Part shown: positions 6,450 to 24,040 of the stretch, one piece after another
How the letters are laid out: the number at the start of each line of letters is the position of its first letter
Position numbering within the stretch: position 1 is the first letter of the stretch
NCBI RefSeq assembly: GCF_003970675.1
Contig: NZ_CP034562.1
Span: 3,470,001 to 3,534,000, forward strand
Direction: 5' to 3'
DNA: 64,000 bases
DNA from: Flammeovirga pectinis
GTDB taxonomy: Bacteria > Bacteroidota > Bacteroidia > Cytophagales > Flammeovirgaceae
Made by a program: the position numbers and the translations under genes
The notes under the pieces: generated by a model
What the model was told of the DNA's origin: nothing
Database searches by the model: none
The model's input: only the letters and a program-made list of their open reading frames with translations

Positions 6450-7138
6450 AAACTTTAAACATTTTTAAAAGAAGCAGTATTGTATTTTTTGCTCTATCAA
6501 CATTCTTATTTACTAGCTGTGATGACAACGAAGATCTTCCACCAGAAGAGCATGATCATGAAACAATCACAGACGTAAAATTAATCTTTACAAATACTCA
6601 AGATGCTAGTGATGTAGTAACAGCTTTAGCACAAGATGAAGATGGAGAGGGTGCAAAACCTTTAGAAATTAAAGATGAAATTACATTAGGTTCGAATAAA
6701 ACTTATTCTCTGACTTTTGAAATCTTAAACACCTTAGGACATGACGATCATGATGATCATGAAGAGGAACATGATGATCACGATGATGGAGATGAACATC
6801 ATGACGAACATGAAGAAGAAGGTGAAAATATTGGAGCTGAAATAGTTGAAGAAGCAGACGAACATCAATTCTTCTATGCCTTCACTGAAAATGCTTTCAC
6901 TACTCCTACAGGAAACGGTAATATTGATAATGCCAGTGATCCTATCAACTATGAGGATAAAGATAGTAATGGTTTACCTCTTGGATTTGAAACTTCATGG
7001 ACTACATCTTCTGCATTAAATAGAGGTGAGTTTAGAGTACGTTTAATGCATCAGCCTGATGGTCTTAAAACGGAAGATTCTTCTGCTGAAATTAGTGATC
7101 CAGATTTCGATCTAACTTTTGTATTAAATATTCAATAA
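6446..7138 (+). CDS. His/Asp-rich lipoprotein, putative metal-binding partner
   Basis: This 230-residue secreted lipoprotein has a lipobox near residue 25 (FLFTSC). It is very acidic, with an EEHDHE patch near the mature N terminus and a long His/Asp/Glu cluster at about residues 98-126 that is suited to binding zinc or another divalent metal. The rest (EFRVRLMHQPDG, DLTFVLNIQ) resembles the beta-sandwich of periplasmic proteins found next to metal-related TonB receptors. It overlaps the receptor gene (ATGA) and abuts hisI (TAATG), so it is translated with them. It probably captures metal or metal complex for the receptor; this role is inferred. Confidence 0.75.
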   Translation: MKTLNIFKRSSIVFFALSTFLFTSCDDNEDLPPEEHDHETITDVKLIFTNTQDASDVVTALAQDEDGEGAKPLEIKDEITLGSNKTYSLTFEILNTLGHDDHDDHEEEHDDHDDGDEHHDEHEEEGENIGAEIVEEADEHQFFYAFTENAFTTPTGNGNIDNASDPINYEDKDSNGLPLGFETSWTTSSALNRGEFRVRLMHQPDGLKTEDSSAEISDPDFDLTFVLNIQ

Positions 7139-7554
7139 TGATACAAGGCAGTTCAAAAAATGAATTAGAAGAAGTACTGATACCTCAACTTCAATTTTCT
7201 AAAAGAGGAGGCTTATTACCTGTCATTGTTCAAGAATTTGATTCGGGACAAGTACTAATGTTAGGATATGCCAACGAAGAAGCTTTTCAGAAAACACTTA
7301 AAGTAAGAAAAGCGACATTTTGGTCTACTTCTAGAAAAAAGTTGTGGACCAAGGGAGAAACTTCTGGCAACTATCTTCTAATAAAAAACATAATGGTGGA
7401 CTGTGATCAAGACGCTATCATCTATCAAGTAGAATTGATGGGTGATGGCGTTTGTCATACATTCAATCAAAAAGGAAAAAATAGAAAAGCGTGTTTCTAT
7501 AGAAATTATACTATCGAAAAAAACGAATTGGAGTTTATTGAAGGAATGGAGTAA
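7138..7554 (+). CDS. hisI: Stand-alone phosphoribosyl-AMP cyclohydrolase (HisI paralogue)
   Basis: HisI opens the adenine ring of phosphoribosyl-AMP in histidine synthesis and needs zinc. The 138-residue protein has the family signatures VLMLGYANEEA, TFWSTSRKKLW.KGETSGN and DCDQDA. The three expected zinc cysteines are Cys89, Cys106 and Cys119. The spacing between the last two (CHTFNQKGKNRKACF) is longer than in most HisI. There is no HisE domain and no his operon nearby. Bacteroidota commonly encode a HisIE fusion elsewhere, so this is probably a second copy. It sits between a lipoprotein and folE in the Zur-type operon. Zur-controlled HisI paralogues are known in other bacteria. Confidence 0.85.
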   Translation: MIQGSSKNELEEVLIPQLQFSKRGGLLPVIVQEFDSGQVLMLGYANEEAFQKTLKVRKATFWSTSRKKLWTKGETSGNYLLIKNIMVDCDQDAIIYQVELMGDGVCHTFNQKGKNRKACFYRNYTIEKNELEFIEGME

Positions 7555-8214
7555 ATGAAGAAGAAGGAAAAAATAAAAATCGAGGCTGAAGGTGATAATC
7601 ACATCATGACGAGTGTAGACACACCTATGCTCCCAAATGCTTTTGAAAAAAGTGATAAAGAAAAAATTGAGATAATTCAGGAATACTTTGGCGGTATTAT
7701 GGAAACACTTGGGCTTGATCTTTCAGATGATAGTTTGAAGGGTACTCCTTATCGTTTTGCAAAAATGTATGTAAAAGAACTTTTTGCCGGACTAGACCCA
7801 GATAAAAAACCTTCTCTATCCGTTTTCGATAATAAATACCAGTATGATAAAATGTTGATTGATAAGAACATCACTTTTTCTTCTGCATGTGAACATCACT
7901 TTTTACCAATTGTAGGAAAAGCGCATGTTGGTTACATCTCTTCTGGGAAAGTTATTGGTATTTCTAAAATTAATAGAATTGTAGAATATTACGGAAAACG
8001 TCCTCAGGTGCAAGAACGTATGACATTACAGGTTTATAATGAATTAAAAAATGCACTCCAAACAGATGATATTATAGTTATTGTAGATGCAGAACACCTT
8101 TGTGTTTCTACACGTGGTGTAAAAGATAAATCAAGTGCTACGGTAACGATGGAATATGGAGGGAAATTTACTGATTCTTCTTACAGAGAGGAGTTTATTA
8201 GGTTATTAGAATAA
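7555..8214 (+). CDS. folE: GTP cyclohydrolase I (FolE, zinc-dependent type)
   Basis: FolE converts GTP to dihydroneopterin triphosphate, the first step of folate and pterin synthesis. The 219-residue protein has the active-site motif ACEHHFLP (Cys112, His114, His115) and the second zinc segment EHLCVSTRGV (His181, Cys183). It is therefore the classical zinc-dependent FolE, not the metal-flexible FolE2. The start codon follows the hisI stop directly, making it the last gene of the operon. Zinc-starvation regulons usually hold FolE2; a type I enzyme here may be a spare copy induced when the main enzyme is short of zinc. Confidence 0.93.
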   Translation: MKKKEKIKIEAEGDNHIMTSVDTPMLPNAFEKSDKEKIEIIQEYFGGIMETLGLDLSDDSLKGTPYRFAKMYVKELFAGLDPDKKPSLSVFDNKYQYDKMLIDKNITFSSACEHHFLPIVGKAHVGYISSGKVIGISKINRIVEYYGKRPQVQERMTLQVYNELKNALQTDDIIVIVDAEHLCVSTRGVKDKSSATVTMEYGGKFTDSSYREEFIRLLE

Positions 8215-8628: not shown

Positions 8629-8943
8629 ATGAGAAAGAAAAGAACAGCTTACGACAAGGAGTTTAAACAGATGGTTGTTAATCTTCATAAGACAGGTAAA
8701 TCGATTCAAGAAGTGGGTAGAGAATTAGAATTAAATACTAATATGGTAGCTCGTTGGATCAGAGAGGAAGAAAAATATGGAGAGAATAGTTTTCAAGGAA
8801 ATGGCAAGCCTGTAATGACAGATCTTGAATATGAAAATGCACGATTACGTAAAGCTTTAAAAGAAGCAGAAGAGGAACGTGAGATATTAAAAAAGGCTGT
8901 AAGCATCTTCTCCAGGAGCGACAACAGAAATACCAATTTATAA
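8629..8943 (+). CDS. IS3-family transposase OrfA
   Basis: This 104-residue protein has a helix-turn-helix (about 1-55; TAYDKEFKQMVV and LNTNMVARWI) and a leucine-zipper-like C terminus (YENARLRKALKEAEEEREIL). It recognises the IS ends. A slippery heptamer A AAA AAG at 8889-8895 lies in the correct frame for programmed -1 frameshifting into OrfB, as is standard for IS3 elements. The -1 frame is open from there into the OrfB region and reads KYQFIKAY. Confidence 0.9.
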   Translation: MRKKRTAYDKEFKQMVVNLHKTGKSIQEVGRELELNTNMVARWIREEEKYGENSFQGNGKPVMTDLEYENARLRKALKEAEEEREILKKAVSIFSRSDNRNTNL

Positions 8944-8975
8944 AAGCTTATACAGGTACTTTTGCTGTTGAGAAG

Positions 8976-9828
8976 ATGTGTAAATTATTATCCATTTGCC
9001 GTAGTAGTTACTATGATTGGTTGAATAGAAAAGAATCAAAAAGAACAATTTCAGATAGAAGTATTTCGAATGAAATAAAAGCTATATATAAAGAATCACA
9101 GGGAAGGTTCGGAAGTCCTAAAGTAACCAAAATATTAAATAATAATGGTTTCCATGTCTCTAGACCTAAAGTAGCTAGAATGATGAAAAAAGAGGGTTTA
9201 AGAAATATTATAAGTCGAAAATTTAAAGTTCAAACCACTTTATCAGATCATGATTTGAGAATATCTCCAAATCTTTTAGATCGAAACTTCAATCCACATT
9301 TACCATCTAAAGCGTGGGTGTCTGATATCACTTATTTATGGACTTCTAATGGATGGACTTACCTGACAATCATTATGGATTTATTTGATAGACAAATTAT
9401 AGGTTGGTCCATATCAGATACAATGACTATGGATGAAACGGTAAACCGAGCATGGGAAATGGCTATATTAAATAGAAAACCATCTCATGGTTTAATCTTT
9501 CATTCTGATCGAGGTGTACAGTACGCTAGCAAGAGTTTTCGAAGAATACTTAGTAATCATAATGTGGCACAAAGTATGTCTAGAAAGGATTTGAGATTAA
9601 GAGGATAAAACGCAGTTTTAGGGTACAAAACCTGCTGTAGCAGAAAATTTCTTTAAGATTTTAAAATCTGAATATACAAATCATGTTTCATTTCAAAATT
9701 TATTTCATGTGAAATTGAAAGTGGCAGAGTATATTGAAATTTGGTATAATAGAAAGAGACCTCATTCAAAACTGGGGTATGTCAGTCCCAATTTTTACTA
9801 CAATTATAAAAAGGTTAAGGTGGCTTAA
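8976..9828 (+). pseudogene. IS3-family transposase OrfB, disrupted
   Basis: The first 210 residues (8976-9608) carry an HTH_21 region and the rve DDE core, with catalytic Asp in WVSDITYLW and Asp in HSDRGVQYAS. After MSRK at about 9593, the expected G-N-C-x-D-N codons are replaced by about 40 unrelated bases with a stop at 9606-9608 and a frame change. The true C terminus resumes at 9634-9828 (AVAENFFKILKSEY, ending YNYKKVKVA) and includes the catalytic Glu and the RPHSKLGY motif. The transposase is therefore inactive unless supplied in trans. Confidence 0.85.
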
Positions 9829-11094: not shown

Positions 11095-11395
11095 AACCTA
11101 CTTGCCCCGATACAGAACTTACTAACACCTCTAAAATCTGCGTTCTTGATAGTTTTAAGGCTGTTTTTGAAATTTGGACGGACAAATAGAGTACAAAAAT
11201 GATGAAGTAGGATTTTGATAATTTTGGAGGATGAAAAAAACATTGATTTTAACATTTTAAACCTTTCTTACTCCAACCCCATGTATACTTTGTAGATTTT
11301 GTATACTAACTATCAAAAACCTTTGATTAACGCTTATTTAAGCTGTTTTATGAGAGGGTTTAGTATACAATTGGTTGTATACTTAGGTGTAGACT
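11095..11395. repeat. mnmE-end direct repeat 1 (left array boundary) plus 280-bp repeat
   Basis: Positions 11095-11122 copy the last codons of mnmE (minus strand TTAGTAAGTTCTG...CAAGTAG) with two extra C bases inside the core. About 280 bases of cassette-specific sequence follow, roughly 95% identical to 15544-15818. It contains GTATAC at 11283-11288, 11301-11306, 11363-11368 and 11377-11382; the last two form a palindrome with arms GTATACAA and TTGTATAC. No mnmE-type terminator lies to its left, so this is taken as the outer boundary (attR-like) of the defence array. Confidence 0.8.
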
Positions 11396-11411
11396 AAACA
11401 CATAACCTTAT

Positions 11412-12752
11412 CTATTCCTTTTCAATAACTCTTATTGAATATGGTTCCGTTTGATCTTCAGAAATAAGCCTTTCTCGATATAATTCTTTCTTAGTAAAAT
11501 TTCTATATATACTATTTGATAAAGCTCTATGACCATTTTTTATGATGTTTCCATCTTTATCTACTTCATTAAAAGGATGTGCACAAATCTTTAGGCAATT
11601 ATCATGTTCAAAAATCTCCTTCAACAAGGTTTTATCACTTAATCCACACGATAAACCTAGAATTGTAACATAGTATTTTCCTGTATCTAAATAATCTAAA
11701 ACCTTATCAAGGTTACTTTGTCTTTTGTATAGATTTGACTTTATGAATTCGAGATAAGCATCAACTTCTAATTCCTCTATCTGCTTTATATGTTTATCAT
11801 ATTCGTTTCCATAACCAAAAATTATATATTCCTCTTCTTCTAATGATCCGTGAATATGGATATGTTCCCAATTATAAGCTCCTTGATTATATTGTTCTGT
11901 GTATATCAATGGAGTTCTTGTATAGTTAAAGTTGACAATAACACTATTTTTTGCTATTTGAAAAGGTAGTTCATATTCATTCTTTCCATCAGGATTTCTA
12001 TCAAACATCACTTTGCCTCTAGAATATGGATCTTCTTCTATAACTTTATAAAAATGTTTAAGAGGAATAGAGTTTAAAAGTGGCAGCCTGATTGACTCTA
12101 CCCAATTATCATTAGATTTTTTTCTTCTTAAATTTAGAAAAGCTTTCTCTTCTTTTTTAAGATAATTGATTAACTCACTTCTTACTTCTTTAAAACCTTG
12201 ATTATACTTTTGTAATAATTCTGAATTAGGCTTCTCATTTTGAATTGTACTCAATAACCGTTCATAATAAAATTTCTCTATTTCTACCCATCCTTTTTCT
12301 TTTGAATCAATTATCAACCTCTCTAGAAAAAAGTTTTTCGAATTAACAGTAAAAGTGTAATTTGGAAAATCATTAAATATTTCTTTAAAATGATCTCTTA
12401 AAACAGGATGTATATCTATTCTAAGATCAGGTCTTGCTTTATTATCTGTAAGTTCTTTATCACTCACTTTTCTTAATTCATAAGATTCATTACTTTTTGA
12501 ACGATAAGTATGTAATGATATAATAACTTGTCCTACTTCAATATTTTCGCTACATACCAGTCTATTTCCTCTGCTCCAATCTCTAAAAAAATAGTTCCCA
12601 ACAAATTTACCTAGCTCCTCATTTATTTTATCAATAGGAAATAAAGACTTTAAAAAATCTCCATAAGATGTTTTCATCCCATGAGCCATATCAAACCCAT
12701 TGCCTATTAAGATAAGATGGTTTGTATCTTCTGTTAGTCCGTTTTTGTTCAT
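11412..12752 (-). CDS. AbiH-family abortive infection protein
   Basis: This 446-residue protein begins with the AbiH hallmark LILIGNGFDMAHGMKTSYGD (Gly17-Asn-Gly-Phe-Asp21), a nucleotide-binding-like motif. Later conserved segments are VNFNYTRT, HIHGSLEEE and IIFGYGNE. AbiH was described as a lactococcal plasmid phage-resistance factor, and the family is widespread in defence islands; its biochemical activity is not settled. It lies first inside the left boundary of the mnmE-linked array, transcribed leftwards, 103 bases downstream of the Fic gene. Expression from the Fic or its own promoter is possible. Confidence 0.88.
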   Translation of the reverse strand: MNKNGLTEDTNHLILIGNGFDMAHGMKTSYGDFLKSLFPIDKINEELGKFVGNYFFRDWSRGNRLVCSENIEVGQVIISLHTYRSKSNESYELRKVSDKELTDNKARPDLRIDIHPVLRDHFKEIFNDFPNYTFTVNSKNFFLERLIIDSKEKGWVEIEKFYYERLLSTIQNEKPNSELLQKYNQGFKEVRSELINYLKKEEKAFLNLRRKKSNDNWVESIRLPLLNSIPLKHFYKVIEEDPYSRGKVMFDRNPDGKNEYELPFQIAKNSVIVNFNYTRTPLIYTEQYNQGAYNWEHIHIHGSLEEEEYIIFGYGNEYDKHIKQIEELEVDAYLEFIKSNLYKRQSNLDKVLDYLDTGKYYVTILGLSCGLSDKTLLKEIFEHDNCLKICAHPFNEVDKDGNIIKNGHRALSNSIYRNFTKKELYRERLISEDQTEPYSIRVIEKE

Positions 12753-12855
12753 AAGATCATTCTTCTTTTATGAAAGAGTTTTTTAATTATCAGTATGAAA
12801 TAACTAATCAATAATATACTGACAATTGAGTTTATAAAAAGTTATAATTCAATAT

Positions 12856-13980
12856 TTACTTCAAAACAAAATTCTTGTTCCTATCTCCTGCAGAAGATTT
12901 CACCAATATTCCCAATCCAATTAAATACTCAATATCTCTTGTTGCTGTCTGGAAAGAGCATTTCGTCATTCTGCTCCATTTTCGATTATTCATACCTCCT
13001 TCAAAATCATCTTCAAGCATTTTATTAATTACTTTTATCTGACGATTATTGAATTTTACTTGAGTATATTTTTTCCAAAAGTTATCTCTTTTTAAAAGCT
13101 TATCTAATTTTTGATTAGACAACTCTATTGCCCCTTGAATTGCTCCTAAGAAGTAGAGAATAAAACTTGTAATATCCATATTACCTTTAGAATTGAACTC
13201 TAACTGACGGTAATACTCCCCTTTATTTCTTGAGATATAAGAAGAAAAACCAATGGTTCGGATGGAATCTGAAAAACTATTGGCAAGTATTTTATCTACT
13301 AAATTTCTCCCTATTCTACCATTCCCATCTTCGAAAGGATGTATTATTTCATACCATAAGTGAGCAATTGCAGATTTTATAAATGGGTGTATGGAAGACT
13401 CAGTATTAAACCACGCAATAAATGAATTCATTTCTCGACGAATCATTTTTACTTCTGGAGCAATGTAAATTACTTTATTTCCACTACGTATCTGCATTCT
13501 CTCTTTTGTATATTCTCCTGCAACAATTGATTCTCCATCAGATAGCCCATTAGGAAAATAGGTTTTATGCCATTTATACAGTGATTCATGAGTGAGTTTT
13601 TCATCAGCATGAAGAATTGCATCGGCAAAAACTTCCACATTATTATCTGAGATAAACTTTTTCTTTGTGTGTGAGTATCCAAAAGATTTCTTCACCGAAT
13701 TACGAATATCCTCTTTATTTAAAATCTGCCCTTCGATCTCAGCATTCGCAAATACCTCATCTGACAAAGCCGTGATGATTACTTCATTTCTTGCATCAAT
13801 ATTGACATCTTTAAAACGACCTTTGATAAAGCCATAAGCTTCCATTACTAAGGCTAATTGACGAAATACTTTACTTTCATCAAACATAAAATTTGGCCAA
13901 TCTTCGTGATTATATTTATACAGCTCTTCCATATTCACAAAATATGGAAATATAAAATGTAAACCTAAATCCATATTCAC
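12856..13980 (-). CDS. Fic-domain protein (DUF4172-type N terminus)
   Basis: Fic enzymes transfer AMP or other moieties to target proteins. The canonical motif HPFEDGNGRIGR spans residues 214-225. The N terminus (YNHEDWPNF and following) resembles the DUF4172 helical region. The usual inhibitory motif (S/T)xxxE(G/N) appears as Asn79-A-E-I-Glu83-Gly, so the first position is Asn rather than Ser/Thr. A winged-helix-like C terminus (about 310-374) ends the protein. An internal start at 13932 (Met17) better fits the family's N terminus. It lies between AbiH and the AAA ATPase; a decayed copy of its 3' end occurs at about 17993-18070. Confidence 0.88.
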   Translation of the reverse strand: MNMDLGLHFIFPYFVNMEELYKYNHEDWPNFMFDESKVFRQLALVMEAYGFIKGRFKDVNIDARNEVIITALSDEVFANAEIEGQILNKEDIRNSVKKSFGYSHTKKKFISDNNVEVFADAILHADEKLTHESLYKWHKTYFPNGLSDGESIVAGEYTKERMQIRSGNKVIYIAPEVKMIRREMNSFIAWFNTESSIHPFIKSAIAHLWYEIIHPFEDGNGRIGRNLVDKILANSFSDSIRTIGFSSYISRNKGEYYRQLEFNSKGNMDITSFILYFLGAIQGAIELSNQKLDKLLKRDNFWKKYTQVKFNNRQIKVINKMLEDDFEGGMNNRKWSRMTKCSFQTATRDIEYLIGLGILVKSSAGDRNKNFVLK

Positions 13981-14028
13981 ATTTTTTGGAGATATAATAT
14001 TAATTAGAGATAATAAAAGCTCTAAATC

Positions 14029-14125
14029 CGTCTCATTAAGTCTATATGGCTTCTTGTATACAAAATAGTTTAACCCAAATTTTGATGTTTTTTTGGAGGT
14101 AGAAAAATATTCATGTTAACATCCT
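14029..14125. repeat. Degenerate cassette-repeat fragment between fic and the ATPase gene
   Basis: Positions 14029-14064 match 17716-17751 with about three differences (shared core CTTCTTGTATAC). The following 14076-14125 (TTTTGATG...TTGGAGG...TTAACATCC) resembles the inner part of the 280-bp cassette repeat (11211-11260). It looks like a worn former cassette boundary. Confidence 0.5.
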
Positions 14126-14128
14126 CCT

Positions 14129-15298
14129 TTAATAATTCAATCCAAATGTCCACAAAGGTAAGACGTTTAAGTATCCAAATTCAAGATCATCTTTCACAAT
14201 AAATGACTTACCATCCTGTTCTATTTGTTTTTGCTGTTTATTCTTTCCTCCTACTTCAAAAGTATAATCTCCAACTACAAAATCAGCTTTCTTAGAGGAG
14301 ATCACTTCATTTCTAACCTGCATTTGATTGAGAAAAAATGTTTCCCTTATATTCCCTATATTAGATTTTTCTTGTGCTAAACTAAATACCAAATTTGTAT
14401 TATCAAGATATACTTTATCTACTTTTCCTAAACCTCTTATACCATTAGTTTCATTTCGTAATTGCCCAATCAAACCTGCTTTCTCCATGTAGGTAAAATA
14501 GTCATCTAAAGAGTTACGGCTTACTTTTAGTATCTCTGCAATTTTTGTGAAATTAGGTTTAAATGGAACGCTTTCCGCAATAATAGATAACAACCGCTTT
14601 AATTTTCGACTCGTCGAAATATTCATATTAGCATACTGTGGGATATCTACTTCCAATGTTTGGGCAATTATTTGGCTTAACCTCACAAAAATCTCATCTT
14701 CAATCCCAAAAGGGTAATATCCTTTTTTAATATAATCTTGAAAAAGAGGTAAAGGATGCTTTAGATTCGTAATATTTATATCTCCTTGAATAATCTGCTC
14801 CAATGAAAAAGGTTTGACATCATATTTGTGAAACATATTCAAGTACTCTCTAAATGACAGACCTTTCATATGATACATTAATGCCCTTCTACTTAGATCT
14901 GAAGATCCCTTTATTATATCAAGAACAGAAGAGCCTGTGAAAGCTACTTTTAAATCTGGAAATGAATCATAAATGTTTTTCAATTCTCTAGACCAATTCG
15001 AATATTTATGAATTTCATCAATAAATAAATATTCCCCTGCATTTTTATAAAAGGTATCTGCTAAATCATAAAGTGAATTTTGCCCAAAATACATATCGTC
15101 TGCAGTTACATATAATGCTTTTTTAGTATCTAAATTCTCTTTTATAAACTGTAGTATCATTGTTGTTTTCCCTACACCCCTTGGACCAACAATTCCAATC
15201 ATCCTACTATTCCAAGATATTTCTTCATATATATAACGCTTGAAATCGATATTTACATGTCTGATTAAAGTCTCAAACTTTTGATATAATACTCTCAT
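14129..15298 (-). CDS. AAA-family ATPase with DUF4143 C terminus
   Basis: This 389-residue protein has Walker A GPRGVGKTT (about 38-46), Walker B YLFIDEIH (about 90-97), a sensor-like FTGSSVLDI, and a C-terminal DUF4143 region. The latter includes a winged-helix-like segment (about 240-280) and a restriction-endonuclease-like tail (SSKKADFVVGDYTFEVGGKNK). Such ATPases are very common as multicopy accessory genes in Bacteroidota; their role is unclear and defence or toxin-like functions are suggested. Two palindromic repeats of GCACAAYTAAAAGTGC type lie just upstream and are probably its operator. It is the promoter-proximal gene of cassette A. Confidence 0.87.
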   Translation of the reverse strand: MRVLYQKFETLIRHVNIDFKRYIYEEISWNSRMIGIVGPRGVGKTTMILQFIKENLDTKKALYVTADDMYFGQNSLYDLADTFYKNAGEYLFIDEIHKYSNWSRELKNIYDSFPDLKVAFTGSSVLDIIKGSSDLSRRALMYHMKGLSFREYLNMFHKYDVKPFSLEQIIQGDINITNLKHPLPLFQDYIKKGYYPFGIEDEIFVRLSQIIAQTLEVDIPQYANMNISTSRKLKRLLSIIAESVPFKPNFTKIAEILKVSRNSLDDYFTYMEKAGLIGQLRNETNGIRGLGKVDKVYLDNTNLVFSLAQEKSNIGNIRETFFLNQMQVRNEVISSKKADFVVGDYTFEVGGKNKQQKQIEQDGKSFIVKDDLEFGYLNVLPLWTFGLNY

Positions 15299-15330
15299 TT
15301 TTCAATCGAAAATTTACTTAAAAATAAAAA

Positions 15331-15379
15331 CGCACAACTAAAAGTACAAAAAATAAAATAAACGCACAATTAAAAGTGT
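15331..15379. promoter_or_regulatory. Two palindromic operator-like repeats upstream of the ATPase gene
   Basis: CGCACAACTAAAAGTAC (15331-15347) and CGCACAATTAAAAGTGT (15363-15379) are spaced 32 bases apart. Each is an inverted repeat of GCAC/GTGC type around AAYTAAAA. The same pair, also with a 32-base period, occurs at 22461-22509. Binding by the ATPase's own winged helix is a guess. Confidence 0.5.
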
Positions 15380-15397
15380 AATTTATTCTTATTGAAA

Positions 15398-15547
15398 AGT
15401 ATCAATAAGTCCACTAAATAGTCATTGAAATTAATCTTTTTCAACAAACAAACTATACCGCACAAAAAAAGAGGGTAAAAACCCTCTTTTCAATATCATT
15501 AAAGCTATATTTTAAAACCTACTTGCCGATACAGAACTTACTAACAC
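15398..15547. repeat. Terminal repeat with mnmE terminator and mnmE 3' end (copy 2)
   Basis: The sequence from AGTATCAATAAGTCC (15398) through the hairpin GAGGGTAAAAACCCTC (about 15471-15486) to the mnmE-end copy (15516-15547) matches 22546-22687 at the true mnmE end. It therefore contains a duplicate of the mnmE stop region and terminator. The mnmE core TTCTGTATCGGCAAGTAG is exact here on the minus strand. This is the junction between cassettes A and B. Confidence 0.82.
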
Positions 15548-15818
15548 CTCTAAAATATACGTTTTTGATAGTGTTAAGGATGTTTTTGAAATTTGGACAG
15601 ACAAATAGAGTACAAAAATGATGAAGTAGGATTTTGATAATTTTGGAGGATGAAAAAAACATTGATTTTAACATTTTAAACCTTTCTTACTCTAACCCAA
15701 TGTATACTTTGTAGATTTTGTATACTAACTATCAAAAACCTTTGATTAACGCTTATTTAAGCTGTTTTATGAGAGGGTTTAGTATACAATTGGTTGTATA
15801 CTTTGATGTAGACTAACT
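15548..15818. repeat. 280-bp cassette repeat, copy 2
   Basis: About 95% identical to 11127-11395. GTATAC sites fall at 15702-15707, 15720-15725, 15782-15787 and 15796-15801. The last two form the same palindrome with TTGG centre. There is no open reading frame; it may be a recombination accessory site or an untranslated region. Confidence 0.75.
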
Positions 15819-15875
15819 ACATTACTCCTCTTCAATATCACCTTTTTATAAGATATCTTCTAGTTTTAATTCTTG

Positions 15876-16874
15876 TTATTGATTCAATTTAATAGTCCAA
15901 GAAATAGAATTTAATTTTCCACTAATAATATGAAGTGTTTGAAGTATTTCTTCTTCATTAGGTAAATATCCATACACTAAGTCTCTAAATTCTTTTGTAT
16001 AAACTGATTTGATTTCTTTCCAGACACTTTCAGTATTCGAAAATAATTTTGCCTCTTTAGGATGATTTACTAACCATTCATTTTCATTCCTAAAACTATG
16101 TACATCATCCTGACCTACAGATTGGAAAAAGAGTTCAAATTCACCTGAATTAAGAAAACTTTGAATTTCCCTTGTTTTGAGTAATTGATTCAAATCATAT
16201 ATATGCCTTATTTTATTCTTTAATTGTTCTTTATAACCATCACCATAAGAGAATCGTACTAAGCTCATTATTTTCTCACAGAATGTTCTTTCTAAAGACA
16301 ATACTTTAACTTCTAAAGGTGCTAGTTCATATTTTTCAATCAGTTCACTTTGCTTATTTTCAAGCATCATATCATAAATATAGGTAGCAATCTTTTTTGT
16401 TTCGAAAGGTTCAGGCTTCCCCAATCTTGTAGCTTCAACAATAATTTTATCTCTTGCCTGAATAAACTGACCTGATAAATCTACCTTCGGGTATTCATAG
16501 GCGATTTTGCGTAGCATTCCTCTTTTATTTGTAATCCCCTCTATTTCTACTTCTTCTAAAGGAGCAGTTATAACTTGCGTTACTTTCTTTAACCGTTTAT
16601 TACGTTGATTTTCTGATGTTAAATCTCCCTCTAGTATTACTAAATCAATATCTTCTGAAAACCGTTCTATTATATTAAAACATTTAGATAAAGCTGTACC
16701 TCCTTTAAATACTATACTTTCTCCTACAGATTGACTAAAAATTGATTTTAAAACATATACCACCCAATAATCTTTTTCAATAAAGACCTCTGCTATTTTT
16801 AGTTGTTTAGCTGTGACCTGAATAGCCTCTTTAAATAGTTTTTTATCATTATGTAAATTCATACAATGTGCCAT
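15876..16874 (-). CDS. AbiEii/AbiGii-type nucleotidyltransferase toxin
   Basis: This is the toxin of a type IV toxin-antitoxin pair. The nucleotidyltransferase motif GGTALSK (Gly58-Gly-Thr-Ala-Leu-Ser) and catalytic acids SEDIDLVI (Asp75, Asp77) are intact, with the downstream helical region typical of AbiEii. AbiE systems cause abortive infection, and some AbiEii-family toxins transfer nucleotides to tRNA. The upstream antitoxin overlaps it. Met5 at 16862 makes an ATGA overlap with the antitoxin stop (16859-16861) and is the more likely start, which would give 328 residues. Confidence 0.92.
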   Translation of the reverse strand: MAHCMNLHNDKKLFKEAIQVTAKQLKIAEVFIEKDYWVVYVLKSIFSQSVGESIVFKGGTALSKCFNIIERFSEDIDLVILEGDLTSENQRNKRLKKVTQVITAPLEEVEIEGITNKRGMLRKIAYEYPKVDLSGQFIQARDKIIVEATRLGKPEPFETKKIATYIYDMMLENKQSELIEKYELAPLEVKVLSLERTFCEKIMSLVRFSYGDGYKEQLKNKIRHIYDLNQLLKTREIQSFLNSGEFELFFQSVGQDDVHSFRNENEWLVNHPKEAKLFSNTESVWKEIKSVYTKEFRDLVYGYLPNEEEILQTLHIISGKLNSISWTIKLNQ

Positions 16875-17641
16875 TTTTGAGTAGTAGATAAAACTGCTTT
16901 TGCTCCATTTAATGGATAAGTAGTTACTGGGTTCAAGGTTTTGAATAATTTATCGGTAAGCGATGAGGGTTCAATATCATCCAATAATGCACCTAATAAT
17001 GCCCTTGTACTAGGAGCATATTTTTTTGCTAAAAAGATCAATCGTTCCTTATCTTCTTCCTTTTTTTCTTTTAGGATAGACTTTATTCTCTCGCAAGTTT
17101 CCTTAATAGTCGCATCAGGTATTTTCTTTATAAAATGAATAGCATCTAATAATTGTAGGTAAGGAATATTTGCTTTTGAAAGGGTATTTTTCTGTTTAAT
17201 ATACTTTATTGTATATATTCCTCTTTTGAATTGAGGTCTTACTTCATTTCTACCAATCTGAATGGTATTACTTACTTGTGTAGTAAGTCCAAGTTGGTTA
17301 TAAATACTCGTACCTGTAAGATACCCTATCACTTTACCATTTACCTCTAAAAGGTCTTTTAGTTCCTGTTCCATTGATGGAGCAAGTTCTCCAAATACAC
17401 TCTGCTTCGCTTTATAAAATTTCCCTTTAGATAACTTGCTAATCACACCTGACTTCATCATTCTGCTTAATGCTTTTACTACAGCAGTCTTAGTGTTATC
17501 CTCATTTAAAAAACTATCTGAGGTAAATACATATCCCTCAGGAATATTTTTTATTTTACTTAATATATAATCTGTTGTTTTCAATATATTTTTGATTTTA
17601 CAACAATATACAGTTTGTCCTGTTTTTTTCAAAAAAAACAA
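16859..17641 (-). CDS. AbiEi-type antitoxin/autorepressor (DUF6088-like)
   Basis: This is the antitoxin partner of the AbiEii toxin, up to 260 residues long. The N-terminal winged-helix region (about 20-80, with KTAVVKALSRMMKSGVISKL and KGKFYK) matches AbiEi-like transcriptional regulators. The longest frame begins with TTG at 17641, but that codon lies inside a 16-bp-armed palindrome (17614-17647) that is probably its operator. A second TTG at 17584 (before KTTDYILSK) is therefore a credible start. AbiEi proteins are known to repress their own operons by binding inverted repeats. The stop overlaps the toxin start. Confidence 0.85.
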   Translation of the reverse strand: MFFLKKTGQTVYCCKIKNILKTTDYILSKIKNIPEGYVFTSDSFLNEDNTKTAVVKALSRMMKSGVISKLSKGKFYKAKQSVFGELAPSMEQELKDLLEVNGKVIGYLTGTSIYNQLGLTTQVSNTIQIGRNEVRPQFKRGIYTIKYIKQKNTLSKANIPYLQLLDAIHFIKKIPDATIKETCERIKSILKEKKEEDKERLIFLAKKYAPSTRALLGALLDDIEPSSLTDKLFKTLNPVTTYPLNGAKAVLSTTQKWHIV

Positions 17642-17647
17642 GACAAA
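17614..17647. promoter_or_regulatory. Long palindrome at the AbiE promoter
   Basis: TTTGTCCTGTTTTTTT (17614-17629) and AAAAAAACAAGACAAA (17632-17647) are reverse complements with one mismatch and a two-base centre. Position and symmetry fit an AbiEi autoregulatory operator. Confidence 0.6.
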
Positions 17648-17750
17648 AATACACCAATCTATATAAGCATTTCATTTCAGATCTAGGTATTATATGAGAA
17701 AATAAAATTTCAATTCGTCTCATTAAGTCTATATAACTTCTTGTATACGA

Positions 17751-17985
17751 ATTAGAAAGCACAAAAAAAGAGGGTAAAAACCCTATTTTCAATATCATTA
17801 AAGCTATATTTTTAAACCTACTTGCCGATACAGAACTTACTAACACCCCTAAAATCTACGTCTTTGATAGTGTTAAGACTGTTTTTGGAATTTGAGCGGA
17901 CAGATAGTATACAACTATGATGAAATAAAATTTTGGTAAATAACAAGAGAAAAAAAAGTTTATTTTTAACACCTACCTCAGTATA
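17751..17985. repeat. mnmE-end direct repeat 3 with terminator and partial 280-bp repeat
   Basis: The terminator hairpin (GAGGGTAAAAACCCTA, about 17770-17785) and the mnmE-end copy (17815-17848) match copies 2 and 4. After it, the cassette repeat is recognisable but diverged up to about 17985 and lacks the four-GTATAC block. This is the junction between cassettes B and C. Upstream, 17716-17751 repeats the fragment at 14029-14064. Confidence 0.78.
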
Positions 17986-17992
17986 AAATATT

Positions 17993-18070
17993 TATTCCTC
18001 TCACCTTAAGAAGACTTTGCCAATATTTTTAAACCTATAAATACTCAATATCTCATTTTGGAATTTTAAA
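17993..18070 (-). pseudogene. Relic of a fic gene 3' end
   Basis: The sequence aligns closely with the 3' part of the Fic gene (12877-12940), including a shared AAATACTCAATATCTC on the plus strand. Translated on the minus strand it reads DIEYL, then stops in place of IGLGILVKSS. It is a short, decayed fragment sitting just inside junction 3. Confidence 0.6.
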
Positions 18071-18165
18071 AAACACATTCAATTCAAATAGTCTTAATAT
18101 ACAAGTATTGAAGTTGACATGATTTAGTTTTAAATTACGATACAAAACAAGCAAACCCCATTGAA
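18071..18165. other. Leader of the NACHT gene
   Basis: AT-rich sequence upstream of the NACHT start. I see no clear promoter element or repeat beyond the fic relic to its left. Confidence 0.3.
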
Positions 18166-21100
18166 ATGAGTGATGTATCGGCAATAGTTTTATTTTTAAA
18201 AAAAGCAAGAACTACTTTTCTAAACATTCGCCCCTATTTAGAAAAAAAGTATTTTTCAATCTTCAGACTATTCAAAATGCTGAAGATAAATAGTTCTCTA
18301 ATAAATGATAGACATTCAATATTCAATCACAGCTTATACCAATACGAACAAAAGAAAGGAAAAGAGTTAGCATCTCTTTTTAAAGAAGAAGAACTTTTAA
18401 AAGTAATTGAAAATGTATGTATATCAGGCCATCATAAAAGTCTTGAAAGTAAAGTAGAAGACATTTTATTTTACCATAATCCCACCACTTTAGATTCCTT
18501 AAAAGTAAACTTCGTAGAAGAAGTTTCGCTTTTCATGGAGATTTTTAAAGAAAACTATTCAAAATCCTTTTCTTTACATCAAAAAGAATTAAGAGAAACC
18601 AATAAAAAGGTTGATAGTAAAGTTGATGATGTATTAATTAATACAGAAGAAATTGGTGATGGGATTGATCGACTCCAAAATGATTCTGACTCAATTCTTC
18701 AAAAGTTAGATGAAGACAAACAAATTGACTTTTCATTATTCAAGCAATCTTTTTCTACAGATGATCTGCAAACTTTAAAAAGATATATTCCTAGGAGCTA
18801 CTATCTTCTTGAAGAAAATCAAGATTCAAACTTTTATCAGACCTATTCTAAAAATGAGACCGATTTACAATCAATTATTCTTGATAAGAAAAGAGTTTTA
18901 ATACTTGGAAATGGAGGAATCGGAAAAACTGTAGAACTTAAAAGACTAAAACTCATCCTTGAAGAAAATAACAACCTATATTCCTTTTATTATTCTTTTC
19001 TAAGGTATACAGGCAAAACAATGAGCTCCTTATTACCCAAAAATTGGGAGAGTGTTCAAGGTTCTTTAGTCGTTATTTTAGATGGTTTAGATGAAGTAAG
19101 AAGTAGTGATTTTAACATAGCGGTAAGAGAAATAATAAGTTTCTCAGAAAACTGCCCAAATGTCAAAATTGTGATTTCATGTAGAACAAATCACTTAATA
19201 AGTGATTCAATATTAGGTGATGATTTTACAAACATATCTTTAGCTCCACTAAGTTTATATTCAGAGGATGTAAAGCTTTTTGTACAAAAATACTATAACA
19301 TTAATCTTGATGAGTTCCGTGAGCAAATTTACCTTATGGGATATACTGACTTGGTTGATAATCCTTTCTACTTATCTCATTTACTAGATGATTATTCCGA
19401 TAATGGTCAATTAAATAAAAATCGAAAAGATTTATTTGACGCATTGATTGAAAAAAACATTAAATATGACAAAGATAAATATGTTACAACACACGATAAA
19501 AAGCACTTTATTAGAACAACTTTAAGAATACTAGAACAATTAGCCTTATCAATGGAACTATATCAACGTTCCTCTTTGGAAGAAGATGAACTTGAGCAAT
19601 TTCTCGATGAGGATACTGAAAAGTTCCAAATAATCCAATACACGAAGTTTTATAAGAAAGATACTCAACTCGTTTCTTGGGAATTTGATCATCGACTTTT
19701 TCAAGAATACCTATCAGCTAAAGCGTTGTGTCGATATTCCTTTGAAAGGATTATTTCATTTATTACTTACCAAAATTGGAAAAAAGTTAAACCTTCGTGG
19801 ATTAATATTACTGGTTTTCTGATTAGTGTAATAGAGAATGAACAGGTTCGTTCAAAACTAATAGATTGGCTGATAAATAATGATCCAGACTCAATTGTAA
19901 CAGCTGAAAAGGAAGTAATTCCAACAGAACTCAGGGTAAAAGTCTTCAAAAAAATATTCAAACGCACCAAAAAATATCAAGTTTGGCTCAACTCTAATAA
20001 ATTCAATGAAAGTAGACTTGCTAACTTTGGGCAATCTGATGAAATCATTCATTACCTTAAAAAACAAATCACTAACAAAAAGAATAATTTGGAAGTCAAA
20101 AGTAGTGCAATTCGCATCTTTCAATACTTTGATTTCAAAGGAAAAGGTCATTCAGAAACTTGTGATTTTTTAATGACAGAAATAAAAACATATGTGAATG
20201 ATTTAAATCAAAGTGTATCTGAATATGTAGCTAATTGTATTCAAACATTAACTAAAATTGGAATAGATAATAAGTTTGCAAATCAATTAATCCAAACTGT
20301 TTGTTATAGAAATTATCAATCTATTAGAAGTTCTATTTATTCTTTGATTAAAAAGAATAACCTAAGTAATGACAATATTCAGTATTTAATAAGAGGATTT
20401 AAAATAACTAAAAAAATATTTGATGATGACGAAATAGATAGAATACCCAATTATCATACGGGAGAAGAAAGTCAAATATTAGAATGTTTTCTCCAAGTAA
20501 AATTTCCAAAAACATTGAAAATATTGATTCAATTCTTTATTGAATTTCCTTCTTATGAACTTACAACTTCTCACAGTTACAATAATTTTATTGAAAAAAT
20601 AATCAAACTGTCTTCAAAATTATACCATAAAGACCCAGATCTCACATACCAAATAATTATGAATTGGTATTGTATTAAAATGAGATACTATGGTTCAGAA
20701 GAAGGTTTAACAATTAGATATTTTTTTGAATTAACTTCTACTAATGATATAGCTTTGATAGATCTTATTAATGATCAATTCAAAACAAAGGATAGCTTTG
20801 AAAAAGCAAATACTATTGCTTATATCATTACAAATGACAATGTTTCGGAAGTAATATCAGCAGTATTAGAAAATAAAATTGATTGTGAGACTACAATATC
20901 TATTTATGATACCCTTATTAACATAGATAATAATCTTGCACAATCTTTAAAAGATGGAATCTGTCAAAAATTTTCAATTTTGTCACCTCATAAACAAAAA
21001 AATATTTATACAGAAATCAAAGAAAAAGATTTCAATTTACTTTTTACTCCAAAAGAACTTAAGGATAAAATAATCAGTGCATATAAACTTGCTGAAAAAA

Positions 21101-22362
21101 GTCAGTTTAGCAAAACTGAAATAAGAGATATGCATTATTACAGAAAAGAGATTAGTAAACTACAATACTTTGACTCCAATCTAGTATTTGAAATATTAGA
21201 GAAATTTGTAAATGAAAAGAAAGAAGTCGTTACTCTACAAGAAGTTCGAAAGTGGCTTGATAACACTGAAAATGTCGAGAAATATTTAATCAGGAGGTTA
21301 TACAATACCTTACTTAGAGAAGATTTCAATAAAAGATTAAATGATTCCCAAAAAAAATGGGTTGTTGATTGGGTGAATAAAAATATATCAAAAATTAAAT
21401 TCAGTACTGCTATTACCTTCAAATCAGATGACTCATTTTCTGTAAATTATTTAGCTCAATGGGTTTACTTTTTTTCTTTAAAACTAAATTTAAGACACTC
21501 TAACAGTATCATATTAGATATGCTGTTGTTTGTTTGGACTGATAGTGAGGAAAATAATAGTAATATTAATTACATCAACAATTGGGTAAGTTCAGAGTTA
21601 ATTATTGAAAGGATGCTCATAAATCTTAGATTGGGAATAAAAAGCAGTATCATAAGAAAAAAACATCTGAAATATTTATTAGAAGAAGGTATTGTCGAAA
21701 GTTACTCATTTATCGTATCAGAAATTTTAAATGAAGATGATAATACATTTCTGATTTCATATTGGGAAAAAACTAAAAACATTGAAGTTTTTAAAGAACT
21801 ATTTACTAAATCTAACTCCGAAATAAAGTGGCGTATTTTAGATATACTTCTTGAACAAGGAGAATTTTCTTTCTGTCTTAAGCAACTTAAAACCTTACTT
21901 CATAATCATCATTCCCAAGAAGAAGCACTTACTATATTAAAGTACCTAATTAGTATCGGTAATATTGACGGTCTAAAGAGGTTCATCAAGTATCTAAATG
22001 ATAACGATTTTCATATAGACAAGGGTTTCAAGACGTCACATTTAACATTTTCACTCGATGCCTTACCACATTTAATGGAATTATTAGAGATGTGTTATAA
22101 ACATGATATTACTTTTGGCTATCAAGAAAACTTGTATCTTTCAGTTTATAATTTAATAAAAAGCACTGCGTTATTATCAGAAAAAAATTATTCCGTTGTA
22201 AGGGAAAAACTTCAAGCCTTTCTTGATCTCAACCATAAAAAGTACAAATATGTCAAATACCTAAATCATCGACTTCAAGAATTAGATCAAGAGTTTTACA
22301 AGAACAATACTATCACATTAACAATTGCTGAAGTGAAAGAACAAATTTCAATAAAAAACTAG
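18166..22362 (+). CDS. NACHT-domain NTPase, prokaryotic NLR-like defence protein
   Basis: This is a single 1398-residue protein. An N-terminal effector/linker region (about 1-215, partly coiled coil with KVDDVLINTEEIGDGID) precedes a NACHT STAND-type NTPase. Its P-loop is GNGGIGKT (248-255) and its Walker B is VVILDGLDEV (about 302-311), followed by CRTNHL and a winged-helix region near WEFDHRLFQEYLSAK. The remaining 850 residues are an alpha-helical solenoid without obvious leucine-rich repeats, probably the sensor. Bacterial NACHT proteins are established anti-phage systems related to eukaryotic NLRs. The N-terminal effector class is not recognised. It is the only gene of cassette C and reads towards mnmE, opposite to cassettes A and B. 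Confidence 0.85.
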   Translation: MSDVSAIVLFLKKARTTFLNIRPYLEKKYFSIFRLFKMLKINSSLINDRHSIFNHSLYQYEQKKGKELASLFKEEELLKVIENVCISGHHKSLESKVEDILFYHNPTTLDSLKVNFVEEVSLFMEIFKENYSKSFSLHQKELRETNKKVDSKVDDVLINTEEIGDGIDRLQNDSDSILQKLDEDKQIDFSLFKQSFSTDDLQTLKRYIPRSYYLLEENQDSNFYQTYSKNETDLQSIILDKKRVLILGNGGIGKTVELKRLKLILEENNNLYSFYYSFLRYTGKTMSSLLPKNWESVQGSLVVILDGLDEVRSSDFNIAVREIISFSENCPNVKIVISCRTNHLISDSILGDDFTNISLAPLSLYSEDVKLFVQKYYNINLDEFREQIYLMGYTDLVDNPFYLSHLLDDYSDNGQLNKNRKDLFDALIEKNIKYDKDKYVTTHDKKHFIRTTLRILEQLALSMELYQRSSLEEDELEQFLDEDTEKFQIIQYTKFYKKDTQLVSWEFDHRLFQEYLSAKALCRYSFERIISFITYQNWKKVKPSWINITGFLISVIENEQVRSKLIDWLINNDPDSIVTAEKEVIPTELRVKVFKKIFKRTKKYQVWLNSNKFNESRLANFGQSDEIIHYLKKQITNKKNNLEVKSSAIRIFQYFDFKGKGHSETCDFLMTEIKTYVNDLNQSVSEYVANCIQTLTKIGIDNKFANQLIQTVCYRNYQSIRSSIYSLIKKNNLSNDNIQYLIRGFKITKKIFDDDEIDRIPNYHTGEESQILECFLQVKFPKTLKILIQFFIEFPSYELTTSHSYNNFIEKIIKLSSKLYHKDPDLTYQIIMNWYCIKMRYYGSEEGLTIRYFFELTSTNDIALIDLINDQFKTKDSFEKANTIAYIITNDNVSEVISAVLENKIDCETTISIYDTLINIDNNLAQSLKDGICQKFSILSPHKQKNIYTEIKEKDFNLLFTPKELKDKIISAYKLAEKSQFSKTEIRDMHYYRKEISKLQYFDSNLVFEILEKFVNEKKEVVTLQEVRKWLDNTENVEKYLIRRLYNTLLREDFNKRLNDSQKKWVVDWVNKNISKIKFSTAITFKSDDSFSVNYLAQWVYFFSLKLNLRHSNSIILDMLLFVWTDSEENNSNINYINNWVSSELIIERMLINLRLGIKSSIIRKKHLKYLLEEGIVESYSFIVSEILNEDDNTFLISYWEKTKNIEVFKELFTKSNSEIKWRILDILLEQGEFSFCLKQLKTLLHNHHSQEEALTILKYLISIGNIDGLKRFIKYLNDNDFHIDKGFKTSHLTFSLDALPHLMELLEMCYKHDITFGYQENLYLSVYNLIKSTALLSEKNYSVVREKLQAFLDLNHKKYKYVKYLNHRLQELDQEFYKNNTITLTIAEVKEQISIKN

Positions 22363-22460
22363 AGCTGTTGTCTGTTTAAATTTTCATTCAAAACAAACAC
22401 TATAAAGAATTAAAAAAGGATGGGAATGCTGACTTCAAATGAAATAATAAGGTTTTAAAA

Positions 22461-22509
22461 AGCACAATTAAAAGTGCACTAAATCAATAAAACGTACAAC
22501 TAAAAGTGC
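22461..22509. repeat. Orphan copy of the ATPase-type operator pair
   Basis: AGCACAATTAAAAGTGC (22461-22477) and CGTACAACTAAAAGTGC (22493-22509) have the same 32-base period as the pair upstream of the AAA/DUF4143 gene at 15331-15379. Here no such gene follows; the NACHT gene lies to the left in the opposite orientation. Confidence 0.55.
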
Positions 22510-22545
22510 TTTTCATAATGTGTTAAATAACTTCTATGAAGTAAG

Positions 22546-22687
22546 AGTATCAATAAGTCCATTAAATAGTCATTAATATTTTTCATCAAACAAATTAGAA
22601 AGCACAAAAAAAGAGGGCCAAAACCCTCTTTTCAATATCGTTAAAGCTATATTTTAAAACCTACTTGCCGATACAGAACTTACTAAA
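22546..22687. repeat. mnmE 3' end and terminator, right boundary of the defence array (copy 4)
   Basis: This contains AGTATCAATAAGTCC (22546), the hairpin GAGGGCCAAAACCCTC (about 22613-22628) acting as mnmE terminator on the minus strand, and the last codons of the functional mnmE (22661-22687). The shared identity with copies 1-3 ends at about 22687, inside the mnmE coding sequence, as expected for a recombination core in a gene's 3' end. Confidence 0.82.
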
Positions 22688-24040
22688 GATATTCTCCAAT
22701 AAATCATCAGTAGTCACCTCTCCTGTAATTTCTCCTAAGTGATGTAAAGATGATCTTATATCAATAGCAAGAAAGTCTCCTGTCATTCCCATATCGATAC
22801 CATTAATTACATCGTCTAATGCTTTCATGGTTTCACGTAACGACTGATAATGTCTAGCATTCGTTACCATAGTATTTCCTGTTTGTACTTTATCAAGATT
22901 TACTAAATGAAGTGCTCTTTCTTTCAGCTCCTCAACACCAGTACCTTTATCGGCAGATATTTCTATCAAGTTTTCAGAAAAAACTTTAAAGTCTTCTGCT
23001 AAACCTGTGGCTAACTTATCTAATTTATTAGCAACTAAAATATAGGGAACTCCTAATTTATCTAGTGCTTCAACTTCATTTTGTACTTCAGCAAAACTAG
23101 ATTCAGATGCATCGAACATGTACATTATTAAAGAAGCTTGTTTCATCTTCTCGTAAGAACGTTGTACACCAATTGCTTCCACTCTATCTTGTGTTTCACG
23201 AAGCCCTGCAGTATCTACAAAACGAAATGTTATACCGCCAATATTTATTTCGTCTTCAATAAAATCTCGTGTTGTACCTGCTACTTCAGAAACAATTGCT
23301 TTATCCTCATTTAATAATGCGTTTAGTAAAGTTGATTTACCTGCATTTGGCTTTCCTGCAATTACTGTAGGTACACCATTCTTTAGCACATTACCTAGAG
23401 AGAAAGAATCAATCAATGCTTTAATCACACGTTTTAACTCATTGATTAAAGCTTTTAGATCATCTCTTGATGCAAACTCTACATCTTCTTCAGAGAAATC
23501 TAATTCTAATTCAATCATTGAAGCAAAATGGATTAGCTTTTCTCTTAACTTTTTAATGTCGTTAGAAAAACCACCTCTCATTTGTTGCATTGCCGCATCT
23601 CTAGATGCATGAGAATCTGCAGCAATTAAATCTGCTACTGCTTCTGCTTGTGCTAAATCTAATTTACCATTTGCAAATGCACGTTGTGTAAACTCCCCTG
23701 CCTTAGCATAACGAGCACCAACTTGCATAAACAATTGTAACAATTGATCTGCAATAAATTGAGAACCATGACACGATATTTCTACCGTATTTTCTCCTGT
23801 ATATGATCTTGGACCATAGAAAATTGTTGCCAACACTTCGTCTACAATGGTACCATCTTCTTGACGGATTGTACCAAAATGAGCTGTATGTCCTGCTTGT
23901 GTTTCTAGGTCTTTTCCTTTAAAAACTTTGTTGACAATCTTAATTGCATCAGGACCAGAAAGACGAATCACGTGGATTGCAGACTGCCCCGGAACTGTTG
24001 CTAAAGCAACAATTGTATCTAATTCTATAGTATTATGCAT
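22661..24040 (-). CDS. mnmE: tRNA uridine(34) 5-carboxymethylaminomethyl synthesis GTPase MnmE
   Basis: MnmE, with MnmG, modifies the wobble uridine of several tRNAs. The 459-residue protein has the N-terminal formyl-THF-binding domain (about 5-122), a helical domain split around an inserted G domain, and the invariant C-terminal FCIGK. The G domain has G1 GKPNAGKST (229-237), G3 DTAGLR (276-281) and an NKLD G4 motif. It is full length. Its last codons and terminator are the unit repeated at the junctions of the defence cassettes downstream, so the 3' end is the inferred integration site. A TACCTTTG promoter element lies 23 bases upstream of the start. Confidence 0.97.
   Translation of the reverse strand: MHNTIELDTIVALATVPGQSAIHVIRLSGPDAIKIVNKVFKGKDLETQAGHTAHFGTIRQEDGTIVDEVLATIFYGPRSYTGENTVEISCHGSQFIADQLLQLFMQVGARYAKAGEFTQRAFANGKLDLAQAEAVADLIAADSHASRDAAMQQMRGGFSNDIKKLREKLIHFASMIELELDFSEEDVEFASRDDLKALINELKRVIKALIDSFSLGNVLKNGVPTVIAGKPNAGKSTLLNALLNEDKAIVSEVAGTTRDFIEDEINIGGITFRFVDTAGLRETQDRVEAIGVQRSYEKMKQASLIMYMFDASESSFAEVQNEVEALDKLGVPYILVANKLDKLATGLAEDFKVFSENLIEISADKGTGVEELKERALHLVNLDKVQTGNTMVTNARHYQSLRETMKALDDVINGIDMGMTGDFLAIDIRSSLHHLGEITGEVTTDDLLENIFSKFCIGK

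Follow-up and report, generated by a model that had tools for sequence, protein, structure and literature searches.

The closest relatives that the literature offers for the locus described here are cis-mobilizable elements (CIMEs), hitchers, phage-inducible chromosomal islands (PICIs), their minimalist counterparts (PICMIs) and relatives of Salmonella genomic island 1 (SGI1), of which tandem arrays have been reported (PMC5704250; this and the other PMC sources are cited for excerpts). SGI1 integrates at the 3' end of mnmE (trmE/thdF), and the same gene end is the target site in the 64,000-nucleotide stretch of Flammeovirga pectinis analyzed here (the window, G000:C1:3470001-3534000, from a genome of 6.68 Mb in three contigs). 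Behind mnmE, we found a stack of cassettes bounded by copies of the mnmE end. It probably comprises four non-autonomous cassettes made of ends and cargo only, and we consider it reasonably likely that they were integrated by an integrase supplied in trans. No description of such a cassette array was found in the excerpts of the open-licence PMC literature.

All regions are described in the mnmE reading direction. The 18-nt sequence TTCTGTATCGGCAAGTAG occurs exactly at window positions 15519-15536, 17818-17835 and 22661-22678, each time on the minus strand, while the chance expectation is a mean of 0.02 matches in the window (100 shuffles, up to 3 mismatches). In the whole genome, it is found only at those three sites (up to 2 mismatches), and the reversed pattern is not found. 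A fourth copy, near 11095, reads TTCTGTATCGGggCAAGTAG and contains a GG insertion. The 19 nt common to the four cores, TTAGTAAGTTCTGTATCGG, are located at 11107, 15526, 17825 and 22668 in one orientation. To the left of each core lies either mnmE or the right end of a cassette, so the crossover would fall within about 19 nt. A stop codon and a terminator follow on the right side of cores 1-3; core 4 has the inserted GG and no terminator. The last-codon and stop variants (CAAGTAG, AAAATAA, TAAGTAA, GAAATAA) have different sequences behind them. Each cassette appears to bring its own last codons, stop and terminator, and mnmE would therefore be restored; the gene was matched over 1-459 with no stop in all nine whole genomes of the genus compared, G000 and eight relatives (G001-G008). 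The preliminary description of the window had placed copies of the mnmE end near 11095, 15516 and 17815 in one orientation, with terminator copies at junctions 2 and 3 and none near 11095. Both statements hold, the first by pattern search against shuffled sequence; the terminator copies lie at 17760-17784 and 15461-15485.

The similarity between repeats extends past the mnmE codons, covering 300 bp at 96% identity between 11107-11406 and 15526-15825. Across the 8 junctions with a detected core (3 in G000, 3 in G006, 2 in G003), ungapped identity over the 80 nt adjoining the core averages 80% (65-93%, 28 pairs), against 28% (16-41%) in control stretches 520-600 nt inside. One of these 8 conserved right ends belongs to an integrase-coding element of G006, the closest relative (MnmE 97% identical), and aligns to that of cassette 2 at 84.5% over 71 nt. 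Beyond the terminator, there are two types of left end: type a in the NACHT cassettes of G000, G005 and G004 and in the AAA-DUF4143 cassette, and type b in the AbiE cassette, in the HipA elements of G006 and G007 and at an internal window site (14009-14068). The left end of cassette 3 aligns to that of the G006 element over 57 bp (77%, E 3e-7). The main two repeat families measure 190-300 bp, with 60-96% identity to the reference copy. A fragment of the right arm, 35-36 bp long, also recurs at 86-89%, with no core seen alongside, on small contigs, maybe plasmids, of G000 (C3:54394-54429, L167) and G006 (C4:37242-37276, L166), and on one contig of G004 (C412:19968-20002, L139).

The intervals of 2.3-4.8 kb hold, in the window, only defence-type genes, as first described: a NACHT NTPase, an AbiEi/AbiEii pair, and AAA_14-DUF4143 with Fic and AbiH (Pfam, PADLOC; Table 1). 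The NACHT protein matches NNH5 (2.3e-25), with the NACHT family itself just under the Pfam cut-off (7.6e-6, 26.3 bits; cut-off 26.7), and no PADLOC family. No integration or transfer genes were found among the six cargo open reading frames (ORFs), either by Pfam scan or by tblastn with the proteins of the G006 element, in agreement with the earlier idea of integrase-less cassettes. Inside the third interval, at about 14009-14068, there is another left end, which is 76% identical over 198 bp to the G006 HipA cassette (E 4.6e-36), so this interval looks like a fusion of two cassettes whose inner core was lost. The proposal of a cassette stack stands as regards site-specific stacking at the mnmE 3' end, and changes in number, from three to probably four.

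Table 1. Features of the mnmE-proximal cassette stack, in window coordinates and ordered from mnmE outwards.
Feature	Position	Strand	Evidence
mnmE, 459 aa, open, target gene; last codons form att core	22661..24040	-	Pfam MnmE_helical, TrmE_N
att core 1, TTAGTAAGTTCTGTATCGG, within mnmE end	22668..22686	-	
Terminator hairpin of cassette 1	22603..22628	-	
Left-end motif type a, cassette 1	22547..22571	-	aligns to cassette 3 and to G005 and G004 NACHT cassettes
NACHT NTPase, NNH5 N-terminal domain, 1398 aa, cassette 1 cargo	18166..22362	+	Pfam
Right end of cassette 1, 80 nt adjoining core	17836..17915	-	conserved across 8 junctions
att core 2	17825..17843	-	
Terminator copy of cassette 2	17760..17784	-	
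Left-end motif type b, cassette 2	17716..17748	-	
AbiEi antitoxin-type protein (DUF6088), cassette 2	16859..17641	-	Pfam, PADLOC
AbiEii nucleotidyltransferase, cassette 2	15876..16874	-	Pfam, PADLOC
Bipartite iteron box, origin-like, cassette 2	15699..15816	-	
Right-end module of cassette 2 (box, right arm, core)	15526..15825	-	96% to 11107-11406
att core 3	15526..15544	-	
Terminator copy of cassette 3	15461..15485	-	
Left-end motif type a, cassette 3	15399..15423	-	aligns to G006 element left end
AAA_14-DUF4143 ATPase, cassette 3	14129..15298	-	Pfam, PADLOC
Left-end motif type b, cryptic: probable start of fourth, core-less cassette	14029..14061	-	repeat alignment
Fic protein (DUF4172-Fic)	12856..13980	-	Pfam; PADLOC SoFic 3.4e-47
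AbiH	11412..12752	-	Pfam, PADLOC
Second bipartite iteron box, Fic/AbiH cassette	11280..11397	-	
Right-end module of last cassette; 5 bp from AbiH stop	11107..11406	-	
att core 4, outer boundary; GG directly after, no terminator	11107..11125	-	

A tyrosine recombinase beside an mnmE-end copy, which the preliminary description had proposed to look for in relatives, was found in G006, whose mnmE 3' end is followed by a 20.6-kb element and, beyond it, by a pair of cassettes that lack an integrase; in one of them, two ORFs (138 and 260 aa) had no match in the scans, and the other holds HipA. The element encodes HTH_17 and AlpA-like proteins, a tyrosine integrase (361 aa), a DUF3987 helicase, a DUF6371 protein, a 344-aa protein with hydrophobic stretches and a small helix-turn-helix (HTH) protein. 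HEC-01A and PDC-S11 are also present, and a type I restriction-modification system and a CBASS cyclase with its 4TM effector form cargo. The integrase matches Xer-type and other tyrosine recombinases in PDB, and by eye it has the residues R / K / HxxR / H / Y, which we take to be those of tyrosine recombinases. The DUF3987 protein, for which there is no PDB match, is helicase-like with a C-terminal winged-helix match below the Pfam cut-off; its relatives in phage and plasmid records are distant (at most about 30% identity among the matches listed).

We propose that each cassette combines an att core (last mnmE codons, stop and terminator) and a left end with one or two systems of defence type, followed by a right end that runs to the next core. 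A tyrosine integrase from a full element of the G006 type would recombine core with core in trans, and through such recombination cassettes could be gained, lost and exchanged as units. We infer from sequence comparison that an integrase of this type acts on the window cores and that the cassettes are presumably still mobile today.

The comparison of G000 with G006 agrees with the expected turnover of content between relatives: over 40 kb from mnmE onward, the cassette ends of G006 match the window but the cargo does not, and no AbiEii or NACHT match exists anywhere in that genome. Besides G000, the NACHT gene occurs in G005, where mnmE and a small decayed cassette precede it, and in G004, on a contig of an assembly with 7% contamination. 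Between G000 and G005, it has 80.3% identity at 300 fourfold sites, against 34.3% at 169 sites for mnmE and 31.6%, 37.3%, 50.0%, 51.7% and 59.6% for five other ORF pairs (19 to 75 sites); for genes compared between the sister genomes G000 and G006, the values are 60-92%. These identities indicate that the NACHT gene crossed between deep branches after their split and that the adjoining mnmE did not. The HipA gene of G003 and G007 seems to behave alike (68.5% against 45.9% for mnmE), with five other ORF pairs at 31-61%, the nearest to HipA having 60.6% (33 sites). Ordinary homologous recombination through mnmE, terminators and repeated ends, after transformation, transduction or conjugation, would explain such exchanges with the att-like structure as old history. 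Repeats of 190-300 bp with 60-96% identity may suffice for it, and the genome of the window has no close copy of the integrase. However, most boundaries coincide with the core, and mnmE was apparently not transferred with the NACHT gene, since the similarity starts right after the mnmE end and mnmE itself is at 34% fourfold identity. We regard this explanation as very improbable.

Within the NACHT protein, residues 700-1000 or so (window 20266-21165) are 43-65% identical between G000 and G005, against 83-97% per 100 for the first 700 residues, and G004 and G005 agree there at 88-95%. This segment was possibly swapped or is fast-evolving, and could be the sensor. G002 and G008 have no cassette right end in about 18.5 kb behind mnmE. 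For the last G003 junction, the idea that G001, G004 and G005 show a clean empty site was discarded, since agreement to the right of the core extends over only about 45 bp; the shared flank lies further on. An att-like solo match in G001 (L140) falls within an AraC coding frame and was judged to be chance. In G007, a detached mnmE 3' fragment of 62 codons with one stop (C1:1836427-1836612, L157) is distant from mnmE, and what follows it directly shares 90% identity with the flank that lies behind the mnmE array in G006.

In cassette 2, in the Fic/AbiH cassette and in one cassette of G006, the right end contains a box of about 118 bp, in which GTNTACA repeats flank a spacer with 70% A+T in both window copies. 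Its 26-nt right half (up to 2 mismatches) was found at 13 sites in the nine whole genomes and at 0 with the reversed pattern as control. Nine of these sites are in DUF3987 elements (G003, G005, G006, G007), the other four at cassette right ends: two in G000, one in G006 and one in G003 with the left half absent. The genomes without a box site (G001, G002, G004, G008) have no DUF3987 match; G000 has its two sites and no match to the DUF3987 protein. In all four DUF3987 elements, one box starts at the DUF3987 stop codon, 3' of the gene. In PICIs, the origin immediately follows the initiator gene on its 3' side and has one set of iterons on each side of an A+T-rich stretch (PMC6092414), and one box copy in each of the four elements has this architecture and position, a correspondence that presumes DUF3987 to be the initiator; the cassette boxes stand without such a gene beside them. 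In the cholera satellite PLE (PICI-like element), an att-flanked construct with the integrase gene and the origin was replicated with separate expression of the initiator and phage infection (PMC7145576). We infer that the box is a replication origin. Because the AbiE and Fic/AbiH cassettes carry this DUF3987-family box, the helicase/initiator of a helper could also replicate their excised circles. The exact box and right-arm patterns had no match in IMG/VR.

It is possible, if somewhat doubtful, that the box is instead a regulatory site (e.g. an operator for AlpA or another HTH protein) or a transfer origin, with no role in cassette movement. The NACHT cassette and the G006 HipA cassette have no box, and further copies in the G003, G005 and G007 elements flank an ORF other than the helicase; on the other hand, one copy per element matches PICI origins, and DUF3987 is helicase-like with the winged-helix match mentioned above. 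The reading as a transfer origin was considered, but Pfam scans covering 18 ORFs in the G006 element (small antisense ORFs excluded) showed no relaxase family; by eye, no relaxase was recognised among the ORFs near the plasmid-like right-arm pieces either. The extra boxes of those three elements are pairs of direct repeats about 940 bp apart around a single ORF (L163 13838-14899, L164 5819-6879, L165 13213-14259), which resembles a box-flanked cassette. The ORF has a weak phosphoesterase match in the G007 copy, the only one scanned.

Several observations weigh against integration in trans as we propose it. No close copy of the G006 integrase is found in the other 8 genomes of the genus, the next best match by E-value having 27% identity over the C-terminal half, so the helper has been seen once and not in G000. 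Other window left ends do not align directly to that of the G006 element, the box is absent from this element's own right end and from the NACHT cassette and is reduced to half in the G003 cassette, and the right-end statistics cover only junctions with a detected core. Homologous recombination between repeats could also swap cassettes. The cassettes of G003 encode, besides HipBA, a sulfatase, an AraC regulator, and AAT-like and beta-lactamase-like hydrolases. Defence is thus not the defining cargo. Finally, decay is visible: the inner core of the third interval was lost (about 14068), an AbiEii remnant with two stops lies behind mnmE in G001 and G004, and in G005 the NACHT right end stops about 230 nt short. 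Part of such arrays is therefore an immobile scar.

The same signs of decay would be expected if the whole stack were made of dead relics, i.e. full elements inserted serially at mnmE, each decayed to its ends and useful genes as in classical CIMEs, leaving a scar kept for the defence genes with nothing mobilised in trans. This three-step route (integration, decay to a CIME, new insertion) is the published model for most tandem structures of integrative mobilizable elements (IMEs; PMC5704250), and an HTH_17 fragment resembling that of G006 was found about 13.7 kb behind mnmE in G001. This fragment is, however, the sole tblastn match outside the positive control: with 8 proteins of the G006 element and the G007 integrase as queries, there was none (E 0.01) in the window, in the two-cassette stretch of G006 or in the G003 array. 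Within the three intervals, 78-87% of the length is taken up by cargo ORFs; the NACHT gene was transferred between clades; and the same 300-bp right-end module begins 5 bp after the AbiH stop in one case and 50 bp after the stop of an unrelated gene in the other. The lack of element-protein traces in the window and the presence of one end module beside two unrelated genes suggest that cassettes travel as units, and we consider it unlikely that all are relics.

Compared with CIMEs, the window cassettes are likewise att-flanked (attL/attR at the window boundaries, except for the lost inner core of the third interval), lack integration and transfer genes, and are stacked at one target gene, with a full element sharing their right end at the same site in G006. 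They differ in their compact intervals, in the defence-type cargo of the window and in the origin-like box of several right ends. As for derivation from an integrative and conjugative element or an IME, ends are shared with the G006 element, but no backbone remnants are found in the window. The analogy with SGI1 drawn in the preliminary description is right for the target-gene end, with these differences: the host belongs to Bacteroidota, the cassettes have no integrase or transfer genes, and the G006 element has the gene set of a PICMI-type phage satellite, with integrase (PF00589), AlpA (PF05930/PF12728) and DUF3987 (PF13148) (PMC10803314). PICMI insertion downstream of fis is given as mandatory in one place and optional elsewhere (PMC10803314); the G006 element, of 20.6 kb and in Bacteroidota, is at mnmE and not at fis. 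Its origin-like box 3' of the helicase recalls PICIs. Integrase, AlpA and DUF3987 are all missing from the window cassettes. Clusters of attC sites lacking integron-integrases (CALINs), which form arrays, and miniature inverted-repeat transposable elements (MITEs) also depend on an enzyme acting in trans (PMC11389934), but here the end of a housekeeping gene, rather than attC, is the site of recombination, and the units are of 2-5 kb with whole defence systems. No attC consensus was seen by eye at the boundary repeats, which consist of mnmE codons and conserved arms.

This type of array looks genus-specific within the samples covered, because neither 74 mnmE loci of other Bacteroidota (80 named loci, 6 dropped with less than 1 kb downstream) nor, outside the genus, 390 genomes drawn from the order (two candidates scored per listed genome) gave one. 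The named MnmE relatives include Cytophagales (Fulvivirga, Algoriphagus) at about 65%, and very near records may be omitted among them. Only one of the 74 loci (L046, from a Bacteroidota metagenome-assembled genome) has a second mnmE end; located 4 kb downstream of the gene, it is a partial duplication (15312-15734, an in-frame stretch of 140 aa) and not a boundary. In the order sample outside the genus, the right end matches mnmE codons only, except for one 28-bp match in G377. No right-end similarity was found in phage or plasmid records, and no relative of the G006 integrase in IMG/VR. A viral contig (L004) contains the exact 18-nt core inside phage-like ORFs and looks unrelated.

Away from the stack, at window 4017-8214, genes for a TonB-dependent receptor, a 230-aa protein, a phosphoribosyl-AMP cyclohydrolase-family protein and GTP cyclohydrolase I stand in series, adjoined by transposase-type ORFs at 8629-9608. 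The row resembles a zinc-starvation operon.

Since the G006 element has all three PICMI marker genes, the cassettes could be satellites of a satellite. They would then form a standing class of ends-only units, each with an immune system and an att core that restores the target gene, that travel in trans alongside PICMI/PICI-like elements and build up defence hotspots free of mobility genes. We put this forward tentatively, as a fair possibility that we do not yet favour. In its fullest form, it would involve a portable end of about 300 bp with a putative integrase-binding arm and a putative replication origin of the helper. In a dedicated defence hotspot of E. coli, 68% of the cases were without a detectable mobile element, although many of these had integrase or recombinase genes, and the route of movement was left open (PMC10121019). 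Defence hotspots often turn over without a recognised vehicle; one answer would be ends-only cassettes dependent on the integrase, and perhaps also on the replication initiator, of a co-resident satellite. The locus suggests that defence genes can move via the machinery of another element, and, if this is true, orphan att ends and helper origins should be searched for beside defence genes rather than integrases.

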